Below are positions 35,827 to 37,710 of a stretch of DNA of 37,710 nucleotides, one piece after another. How positions within the stretch are numbered: position 1 is the stretch's first letter; every line of letters begins with the position of its first letter. The stretch lies in NCBI GenBank assembly GCA_944391625.1, contig CALXUG010000029.1, positions 1 to 37,710 on the forward strand, written 5' to 3'. The notes beneath the pieces are model-generated. The model ran no database searches and had not been told where the DNA came from. It saw only the letters and a list, made by a program, of their open reading frames with translations. A program made the position numbers and the translations under genes. Origin of the DNA: an uncultured Clostridia bacterium (GTDB lineage: Bacteria; Bacillota; Peptococcia; Peptococcales; Peptococcaceae).

Positions 35827-36031
35827 TAGTGCGTCCGGTTATGTTAAAATACAGACCACTTATGTCAATCGGATAGACGAATATAAAAAATTCTGATATA
35901 CTAAAATGGAAAGTCCAGCTAATAAATGTCAATAGCGAAATAAAAAAATAAATTCTGTTAAAAAAGGGCGCAGTTATCCCTTGGCGAAAATATCGTTTTT
36001 TCAAAAGATATGCAACTGGATTTACAGTATT
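35827..36031. other. non-coding flank between lepB and the transposase
   Basis: AT-rich, with no gene. A weak + strand promoter-like pair is present: TAGACG (35874-35879), 17 bases, TATACT (35897-35902). It may have served a gene now separated by the insertion. On the - strand two TTGACA boxes occur (35863-35868 and 35927-35932). The right-end boundary of the IS element must lie in this region but cannot be placed. Confidence 0.4.
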
Positions 36032-37348
36032 TTATGCAGCTATGTGGCATTTAGCAGCATTGTATTGTTGGATATGCTCCCGTGGAGTCATGATTTCAAA
36101 AGGTTTGTTATCTCTTAGGATTGCAAATATGATGTTGCATACCTTGTGTGAAACAGCGCCCATTGCAACAAGCTTTGGTTTTGATTCACATTTTTTGAGA
36201 TAGTAATCACGAAGTACCGGATTTTTTGCTTCTCCTGTGCGAGATATACTGATGCTTTGTAAAGTAAGGGTATGAATAACCCGTCTGGCTATAACAGACC
36301 CTCTTTTCGACATTTGAATTTTGGTGCCTTCAAATTTACCGGATTGTTTTACAGCCGGATCCAGCCCAAAGTAAGCAAAAAGCTGTTTTGGTTTTGAAAA
36401 AGCAGAAAAATCACCAATCTCTCCCATAAGAGATACGGCAGATAAAAAGCCAGCACCTTTAAATGTTTCGATTAAGTGAATCTGTTTGACAAAATCAGTA
36501 TCTTCATTAGCATTTACGAGTTCATGCATTGCTTGCAGAATATTGTTGATTTCTTCATCATATTTGCGAATGAAACTGATATACAGGCGAATCCGCTTGA
36601 TGTTGCTGTCAATGATGTAACCAAATTCATTGGCTTCATTAGCAGCCTTTATAATGGCATTATACTTGTTCTGAGCATATGTAAGTCCAAAGCGGGCAGT
36701 TGACCTGATAGTGTCAATCATCTCTTGCTTGTCGGCTGCAATAAAGGCAGATGGAGACGTATAAGTTTCCAATAAGGTAAGAGATGTATGAGTGGTAACC
36801 TTGGAGAAAATGCCAAGATACTGTGGAAATGCCATACGCAGTTCCCCTTGAAGCTTGTTCACATAAGCACTGCGGTTATCCATTAAATCGTAGTATTCAC
36901 GAGAGAGATTGCGGCAGTTTAGAACAAGGTCAGAAGGCATAAGAGAAACCTTTAAATCAGGTTTCAAACCAACTAAAGCAGCTTTTTTAGAATCAAAACG
37001 GTCATTATGCACTTTTCGTATGTTGATATTTGTGCTATTCTTAGTGATGATAGGATTTATAACCGAGCAGTTAAAACCCTTATCACGAAGATAGCAGAAG
37101 AGTGGGTAATGATAAACTCCCGTGGATTCGAGGAAAATGCGACTTTCCAAAGAATACAACTCTTCTGCTTCTTTTATTTTAGAAACAGCGGTTGAAAGGG
37201 AATCCATGCTATTGTGTAGGATTTTATAAGGCTTTCCTACAAACTGTTGGTTTGGAAGTGCAATAGACATCCATGAGAAGTCAGCGCTGACATCAATGCC
37301 AACAGAGATGAATAATTCATCAAGATTAAAAATAATTTTGTTTGACAT
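36032..37348 (-). CDS. IS110-family transposase (DEDD recombinase)
   Basis: About 438 residues. The N-terminal DEDD RuvC-like domain shows Asp in VGIDVSADFSW, Glu in LESTGVYHYP and Asp in HNDRFDSKKAAL. The C-terminal transposase_20-like domain begins IETFKGAGFLSAVSLMGEIG and includes FAYFGLDPAVKQSG and SKRGSVIARRV with the likely catalytic Ser region. These enzymes move DNA without classic inverted repeats, guided by a structured bridge RNA. The start at 37348 (MSNKIIFNL) has AAAGGAGC upstream on the minus strand; the frame stays open to 37399. It is the only clear minus-strand gene here. It is intact, so the element may be active. Confidence 0.92.
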   Translation of the reverse strand: MSNKIIFNLDELFISVGIDVSADFSWMSIALPNQQFVGKPYKILHNSMDSLSTAVSKIKEAEELYSLESRIFLESTGVYHYPLFCYLRDKGFNCSVINPIITKNSTNINIRKVHNDRFDSKKAALVGLKPDLKVSLMPSDLVLNCRNLSREYYDLMDNRSAYVNKLQGELRMAFPQYLGIFSKVTTHTSLTLLETYTSPSAFIAADKQEMIDTIRSTARFGLTYAQNKYNAIIKAANEANEFGYIIDSNIKRIRLYISFIRKYDEEINNILQAMHELVNANEDTDFVKQIHLIETFKGAGFLSAVSLMGEIGDFSAFSKPKQLFAYFGLDPAVKQSGKFEGTKIQMSKRGSVIARRVIHTLTLQSISISRTGEAKNPVLRDYYLKKCESKPKLVAMGAVSHKVCNIIFAILRDNKPFEIMTPREHIQQYNAAKCHIAA

Positions 37349-37710
37349 GAGCGGAAGCTCCTTTCTGATAGGAATCCATTTCCAGTCTGACAGGTACACA
37401 ACCTAGCGTGTTATTCGGGTATGGCCTTCCGGCTCCCAACCAGCTAAAACATAAAACCCTGCCGAATGGACTAATTGACTTTCTTGTAGGTATGGGCTGA
37501 TTAAAACAGCATCCCAAGGAGTGATACATTATTTGTCCTATCCTAAAGGATGATACCTTATGTTTTATCCGGTGTCTATCAGGAACCGTCAGACATGATG
37601 ATTAGTATGGATAACATCTGATGAAGGAAGAACACATTCTTTTGTTATCTGTATAGAAACTAATTAATCAAGTAGTCATTCTTGACTACATCATTATTAT
37701 ACTAGGAGTG
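37349..37710 (-). ncRNA. IS110 non-coding leader, candidate bridge RNA region
   Basis: About 360 bases upstream of the transposase hold no ORF worth calling and reach the window edge. In IS110-group elements this left-end leader encodes the bridge RNA. Short hairpins are visible on the minus strand, and a perfect TATAAT lies at 37696-37701 (minus), near the edge. The RNA borders and the element end cannot be fixed from sequence alone. Confidence 0.35.

Follow-up and report, generated by a model that had tools for sequence, protein, structure and literature searches.

We analyzed a 37,710-nt stretch of DNA from an uncultured Clostridia bacterium of the Peptococcaceae, hereafter the window, which is one whole contig (CALXUG010000029.1; C29) of a 2.97-Mb genome assembled into 74 contigs. 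An intact IS110-group insertion element occupies its right end (Table 1). The transposase open reading frame (ORF) is uninterrupted, as a preliminary description of this DNA had stated, and its product matches PF01548 (1.8e-20), PF02371 (9.1e-18) and NF033542 (score 171.5 against a cut-off of 140). The PDB match to IS621 chain E (6.4e-11) aligns E-TG and MSK-G motifs. Judged by its DEDD N-terminal and Transposase_20 C-terminal domains, the combination that marks the IS110 group, the element is an intact member of that group within the IS110 family. Translation probably starts at the ATG at 37348 behind AAAGGAG rather than at an upstream in-frame GTG at 37399, which would give 455 codons (36032–37399, minus strand).

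Both ends and the core were fixed with other copies, as the preliminary description had proposed, using contigs of the same genome together with relatives. Within the genome, C2 carries a second full copy, C71 and C61 both start with the last 77 bases of the window (two further left ends) and C16 starts with another right end (RE), the third in this genome; altogether, the contig ends would fit three element copies. Four contigs (the window contig, C71, C61 and C16) break within the element with 77-base overlaps. The common 77-base start of C71 and C61 indicates that the assembly broke at the element repeat, and the right end of the window (37710) is such a break inside a repeat, not a biological end. 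A scan of genome contigs gave 110 related loci, of which the best 80 were kept, with 64–92% protein identity; 36 of these 80 are in Lachnospiraceae records and the rest in Clostridium, Tissierella and further Bacillota genera. Together with five copies from the host genome, this set of 85 provided 74 left ends (LE), 78 RE and 67 copies with both ends, 63 of which measure 1,776–1,816 bp. The span 35827–37710 given in the preliminary description needs correction: 35827 was rejected as an element end, as 35827–35911 is host DNA by comparison with C2 and C16, and the true start lies 85 bp further right. With 357 nt from core to ATG and 120 nt from stop codon to core, the left end is longer than the right one.

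Table 1 Features of the element and its flank in the window
Feature	Position	Strand	Remarks
Whole IS110-group element	35912–37705	−	1,794 bp counting both CT cores, 1,792 bp counting one; also present, whole or as an end, on C2, C71, C61 and C16
CT core, LE	37704–37705	−	Similarity of the 70 unique sites ends to the left of C-CT-AG
CT core, RE	35912–35913	−	Comparison with other copies
Transposase, from likely ATG	36032–37348	−	438 codons; PF01548, PF02371, NF033542; IS621 and ISCro4 in PDB
AAAGGAG, putative transposase Shine–Dalgarno sequence	37358–37364	−	Kept in most relatives printed
Predicted bridge RNA	37381–37690	−	Starts soon after TATAAT and runs to near the outer helix, 3′ end approximate; guides and covariation
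Left target guide GUAUCACUCCU	37517–37527	−	Same sense as target ATCAC(C)TC-CT
Right target guide CAAGAAAG	37479–37486	−	Pairs with CTTTC right of the core
Left donor guide UUUUAGCUGG	37440–37449	−	Same as RE end TTAGCTGGACT
Right donor guide GCUAGG	37402–37407	−	Pairs with LE start CTAG
TATAAT, −10 half of predicted junction promoter	37696–37701	−	In LE; sequence and spacer of 17 in relatives
TTGACA, −35 half of predicted junction promoter	35927–35932	−	In RE; sequence and spacer of 17 in relatives
Promoter-like TAGACG-N17-TATACT	35874–35902	+	Host flank just before RE, reads into the element; consensus scan only

Uninterrupted counterparts of an occupied site were found for one relative (L026, strain A2), in strain 3-1 (427/442 identity, no gaps) and in isolate C77 (421/436, no gaps). 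Both empty sites hold a single CT, which indicates a short common core and no long target duplication. For the copies in the host genome, no clean empty site was found in seven congeners or the genome itself; the best candidate for the C2 copy was a paralogue on C39 (74% identity with gaps), so diverged and gapped that it does not fix the insertion base. At 1e-60, the element had no match in 45 other genomes of the host’s class, which would fit its arrival by horizontal transfer.

Alignment of the insertion sites revealed where the family lands. Across the 70 unique left flanks, CCTC precedes the core (1.0–1.6 bits per base) and CAT stands at −14 to −12 (0.53–0.96 bits). Read in the sense of the adjoining gene, the target is AG|GAGG-N7-ATG, a Shine–Dalgarno (SD) sequence, and the transposase points away from that gene. 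The gene side starts with AGGAGG at 46 of the 70 sites, AGGGGG at six, AGGAGA at four and AGGAGT at three (59/70 together). An ATG follows between +10 and +17 in 53/70 cases, compared with 74/184 for other AGGAGG in the same flanks and 218/1,320 for random positions (Fisher P = 5.8e-7; 9.3e-7 with AGGAGG junctions only, 37/46). Similarly, a start codon followed by an ORF of at least 60 codons was seen at 52/70 junctions versus 75/184 AGGAGG elsewhere, 153/665 AGGAG and 97/1,320 random places in these flanks. Deposited annotations place the gene start 13 bases from the core for an amylase-family gene of P. acidaminophilum (L166) and for the one site common to two Thermoanaerobacterium plasmids (L167 and L168). 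Ten genes hit by the element, hand-picked from 30 listed, were checked against Pfam, and each matched a family, for example MutS, AIR synthase or PFOR (pyruvate:ferredoxin oxidoreductase).

Several sites deserve separate mention. Seemingly related genes have the element at their SD in L022 and L032; L046 and L059, from different genomes, occupy the SD of seemingly homologous genes with near-identical flanks. The L072 copy is 2,446 bp long, with ~640 extra bases within the transposase-matching stretch and a non-SD left flank. Eight IMG/VR contigs (L139–L146) carry the element, seven of them at CCTC sites, and several duplicate sites of chromosomal loci. A phage search using one joined flank returned no match.

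The leader upstream of the transposase contains short segments resembling the guides of a bridge RNA. They were read in 75 copies; too little of the leader was available in four others (L048, L054, L077 and L089), and the anchor was missing in three (L013, L057 and L086). Because C71, C61 and C16 are contig ends only, they were assigned the window’s guides, giving 78 copies for the guide–target comparison. Left target guides matched their own sites at 377 bases from −7 to −1, compared with a permuted mean of 285.3 (s.d. 17.8) and a maximum of 344, such that none of 20,000 permutations reached the observed value (69 guide–site pairs, 22 guide classes). Restricting the count to the variable positions −7 to −5 gave 133 matches, compared with a permuted mean of 66.3 (maximum 116). 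For the right target guide, 149 matches at +1 to +3 exceeded a permuted mean of 83.0 and all 5,000 permutations (maximum 127; 70 pairs, 29 classes). At −8, −9 and from +4 onward, a copy’s own guide fits about as well as foreign ones do. The signal thus spans −7 to −1 and +1 to +3, as would be the case for a guide, and these limits speak against mere composition. Among the donor guides, the right one covaries with LE in 48 distinct leaders (CTAG/GCTAG in 38, CTTG/GCAAG in eight), while the left one corresponds to GCTGG in the invariant AGCTGG end and follows the end across families (AGCTGG with a matching guide, AGCACGT with AGCACGT).

In sequence, the left target guide is similar to the anti-SD tail at the 3′ end of 16S rRNA. 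Six of 40 distinct guide pairs match the 16S rRNA 3′ end at 7/7 positions on the left side, one of them also at 3/3 on the right, and none of the left flanks collected equals this end; the numbers are too small to claim selection for avoiding it. The same guide (CUCCUU, 37517–37527) is complementary to the AAGGAG of the transposase’s own SD (37358–37364) in the same transcript, and such pairing could possibly mediate self-repression.

Comparative folding used 38 distinct leader rows, from which eight leaders without an anchor were omitted and in which repeated leaders were merged. The lower closing helix of the target loop is GGAUAGGAC/GUCCAUUC. In the hairpin above it (columns 92–96/103–107), all five pairs show two-sided changes, seen in as many as 15 sequences, with variants such as GCUG/CAGC versus GUCAG/CUGAC. 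Over four helices, 98.7% of cells pair, and the covariation score of 0.239 compares with values of at most 0.066 in slid controls and was reached in 0/500 shuffles. The guide–target covariation and the compensatory changes in the target-loop hairpin support a leader-encoded bridge RNA with target and donor loops, in line with the preliminary description, which had suspected one; target guides covary with insertion sites and the right donor guide tracks LE. At the predicted RNA start, 37672–37689 forms a perfect inverted repeat, GTAGTCATTCTTGACTAC, whose stem is, by eye, kept in many relatives with a variable loop.

Joining RE to LE generates TTGACA-N17-TATAAT. The spacer is 17 in 67/67 two-ended copies, and the boxes are exact in 62, with TATTAT in four and TTGACT in one. 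The patterns used for end finding fix the −10 side and leave the TTGACA-to-end distance free. By comparison, exact TTGACA-N15–19-TATAAT occurs three times in 1,046,118 nt (both strands of the 80 unjoined loci). A sigma-70-type promoter would hence re-form across the circle junction. All boxes named in the preliminary description (37696–37701, 35927–35932 and 35863–35868) are present in the minus-strand sequence, and the split promoter it envisaged, with an admissible spacing of 16–19 bases, is supported by the 17-base distance. Of its two TTGACA boxes, the one at 35927–35932 belongs to RE; the one at 35863–35868 sits in the host flank and was rejected as a −35 box. The consensus scan that gave the inward-reading TAGACG-N17-TATACT found 14 such sites against 6.3 expected. 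We do not claim an outward promoter from LE toward the downstream gene, the only candidate, TAGTCA-N16-TATTAT (9/12), being no better than other scan matches.

Beyond close relatives, a phylum search at 1e-40 yielded matches in 30 of 398 genomes, the host genome included, and multi-copy distant families gave independently placed ends. SD sites were found in G136/G170 (52–53% identity) and in G089, G341 and G142 (32–35%). Gene-side starts comprised, by eye, ATG in 4/5 and one TTG in G136/G170, and ATG in 4/4 for G089, 4/4 for G341 and 1/2 for G142; from a reading of the translations only, three G341 genes are thioredoxin-, trpB- and tyrS-like. In these distant families, left target guides are of the SD type, right donor guides fit their own ends (CTTG/GCAAG and CTCG/ACGAG) and junctions combine, with a spacer of 17 by eye, TTGACT (TTGATT in one copy) with TATAAT or TACAAT. 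Upstream of 10/29 loci from the phylum search lies a strict left-end pattern (pyrimidine triplet-CCT-NG-TA), against a background of four matches across 697,336 nt of host-flank sequence.

Two members adjoining SD-targeting ones in the tree occupy other sites: L129 at AAGATC-CT with the matching guide AGATCCU, and L131 at AGTCGCC-TT with the matching guide AGTCGCCUU, each known from one copy with ends placed by homology. Their non-SD sites with matching guides suggest that the targeting programme changes with the guide. SD members fall into two main separate groups of the tree; its label ‘other’ mixes non-SD and undetermined members, and L012 and L034 were labeled by guide alone, so gain and loss counts were not taken from it. 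G174 (31%) has different, GC-rich ends. Its copies L155–L158 adjoin GC-rich palindromes like GCCATGGACGGC, different in each copy, and this family is possibly a hairpin-targeting or hairpin-carrying IS110 lineage.

From these data, we propose, with a probability of roughly 93%, that the element, an IS110-group member, moves as a circle by means of an RNA-guided DEDD recombinase, transcribes a bridge RNA from its junction promoter and is programmed by that RNA to insert into SD sequences while sparing the gene start. The element would move as an excised circle, in which RE–LE joining builds the promoter for transcription of the leader as bridge RNA. One RNA loop would recognize the joined ends, AGCTGGA-CT-AG, and the other the target. 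The target loop, with an anti-SD-like (A)UCAC(C)UCCU plus ~3 bases for the right side of the core, would find AGGAGG-type sites by the same complementarity as the 16S rRNA tail, and strand exchange would then place the element inside the SD as AG|GAGG, ~7 nt before the start codon. The core AG persists at both junctions, which restores AGGAGG-N7-ATG on the gene side, and the landing should therefore spare translation initiation. The gene would be separated from its own promoter unless host-side transcription crosses the element, for which 35874–35902 is a candidate promoter; by this route, genes behind the element may continue to be expressed.

A number of observations weigh against this proposal or parts of it. 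Concerning the target, 11/70 gene sides fall outside the four SD variants, three sites (L056, L070 and L072) are not SD-like at all, and 18/70 junctions lack a rightly placed start with an ORF of at least 60 codons, several of these having an ATG at +13 and a shorter ORF. In the f93 group (35–38%), SD-type left flanks occur in only 1/5. The left flank of the window copy itself is ambiguous between C71 and C61, and, as the stretches after lepB in six congeners matched none of the three known left-flank genes, it could not be assigned through congeners. Concerning the guides, the C2 site CACCTC poorly matches its guide CACTC, the guides of L014, L049 and L078 need a one-base shift of register for a better, or only partial, fit, and the permutations keep relatedness between guide classes. 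One of the 48 leaders combines a CTAA end with GCTAG, and in one the right donor guide was not found. The left donor guide does not covary in the close family, where several leaders read GGCTGG against the constant AGCTGG. Concerning the RNA, the lower target-loop helix is nearly invariant and thus little informative, and two of five covariation measures lie within the shuffles (both-side changes, 17/500; further pair types, 491/500). No donor-loop closing helix was resolved from the 38 aligned leaders. Rfam gave nothing above gathering score and two subthreshold matches, both outside the element. For leader folding, another check put forward in the preliminary description, single-sequence stability is ordinary (z = −1.03; 34/200 shuffles equally good).

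The best-surviving alternative, which we consider improbable, assumes a loose preference for purine-rich intergenic DNA, with the gene-start pattern arising by survival as landings within genes are lost. Other AGGAGG in the same flanks already precede an ATG in 74/184 cases, and selection may lift this proportion from 0.40 to 0.76; the SD enrichment may partly reflect such selection against other landings, a further point against our proposal. A loose preference is nonetheless difficult to reconcile with 1.0–1.6 bits at each of the four core-side bases of the left flank, with variable bases at −7 to −5 and +1 to +3 that track the copy’s own guide, or with relatives bearing other guides at matching non-SD sites. 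Even less probable is a leader that serves the transposase mRNA solely as its 5′ untranslated region or as an attenuator and holds no guide RNA. Its position upstream of the transposase, its several helices and its ordinary fold stability would suit such a role, but its short segments match the target and the ends, three of the four guides covary in the close family and donor guides covary across families as well. Moreover, in the IS110-type ISEc21, circles no longer formed once the corresponding region had been deleted (PMC11187229). Finally, the IS1111 group, whose guide RNA lies downstream of the transposase gene, shares the recombinase family, but we regard this assignment as having next to no chance and rejected it, as that group has subterminal inverted repeats of 7–17 bp and a long guide-bearing right end, whereas here the left end is long, the right end short (120 nt), the guides lie in the leader and comparison of the first 60 nt with the last 60 nt gives an inverted match of at most 6 bp (7–9 bp in 21/67 copies, in differing AT-rich words among those printed).

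RNA-guided insertion into SD sequences might be part of a wider scheme, which we advance tentatively and hold to be rather unlikely with all its details taken jointly. Here, a large, old Bacillota branch of IS110 elements would live by a guide RNA mimicking the anti-SD, with the SD before many genes as its landing pad, and mutS, purine-synthesis, trpB-like and tyrS-like genes could be hit since the SD re-forms. Flanking guide bases would vary by lineage, the SD programme would be lost or gained by guide change, and the guide RNA, complementary to mRNA SDs including the transposase’s AAGGAG, may brake translation.

IS621 has a CT core, as found here, and itself targets repetitive extragenic palindromic (REP) elements, and the target of IS900 is reportedly CATG-N4-6-CNCCTT. 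As IS621 is described in PMC11208160, the window element shares with it the DEDD recombinase (PF01548/PF02371), a bridge RNA in the left end, a core dinucleotide, the logic of left and right target guides and donor guides (LTG, RTG, LDG and RDG) and the junction sigma-70 promoter. It also follows the IS621 scheme in which the 5′ loop segment equals the left target and the 3′ segment is complementary to the right one (PMC11208160). The same paper names REP elements as IS110 targets, unlike the SD target here, and the word ‘Shine’ is absent from its main text. Further differences from IS621 are the longer recombinase (438–455 aa versus 328 aa in the PDB chain) and the longer leader, with the target loop ~180 nt into it. 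For ISEc21 and ISEc11 seekRNA, the covered parts of PMC11187229 report a similar RNA-guided target choice, natural reprogramming among relatives and a circle-junction promoter, but other targets, none of them an SD. Judging from its title, cited in PMC8141618, Doran 1997 reported IS900, an IS110-family element of Mycobacterium avium, at translation initiation signals. Insertion at a ribosome-binding site with a start codon is thus common to both elements, in the same orientation as the IS900 target given above; IS900 differs in belonging to another phylum, and the title of Doran 1997 names no guide RNA. PMC11208160 and PMC11187229 already describe elements of this type with their guide RNA and junction promoter, and an SD or translation-start target is itself not new, given the 1997 title on IS900. 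The bridge-RNA basis of SD targeting and its spread in Bacillota appear to be new; among open-license papers, as far as these were covered, we found none linking IS110, bridge RNA and Shine–Dalgarno sequences.

Bridge-RNA recombinases are under development as genome tools, and their natural target choice is still being cataloged. The family described here provides a series of natural recombinases whose guides and targets correspond, among them relatives at non-SD sites with fitting guides, and a natural guide programme directed at a sequence found in front of very many genes. The rebuilt SD is a plausible reason why such insertions are tolerated, and the guide programme suggests an RNA explanation for the old observation of IS900 at translation starts.
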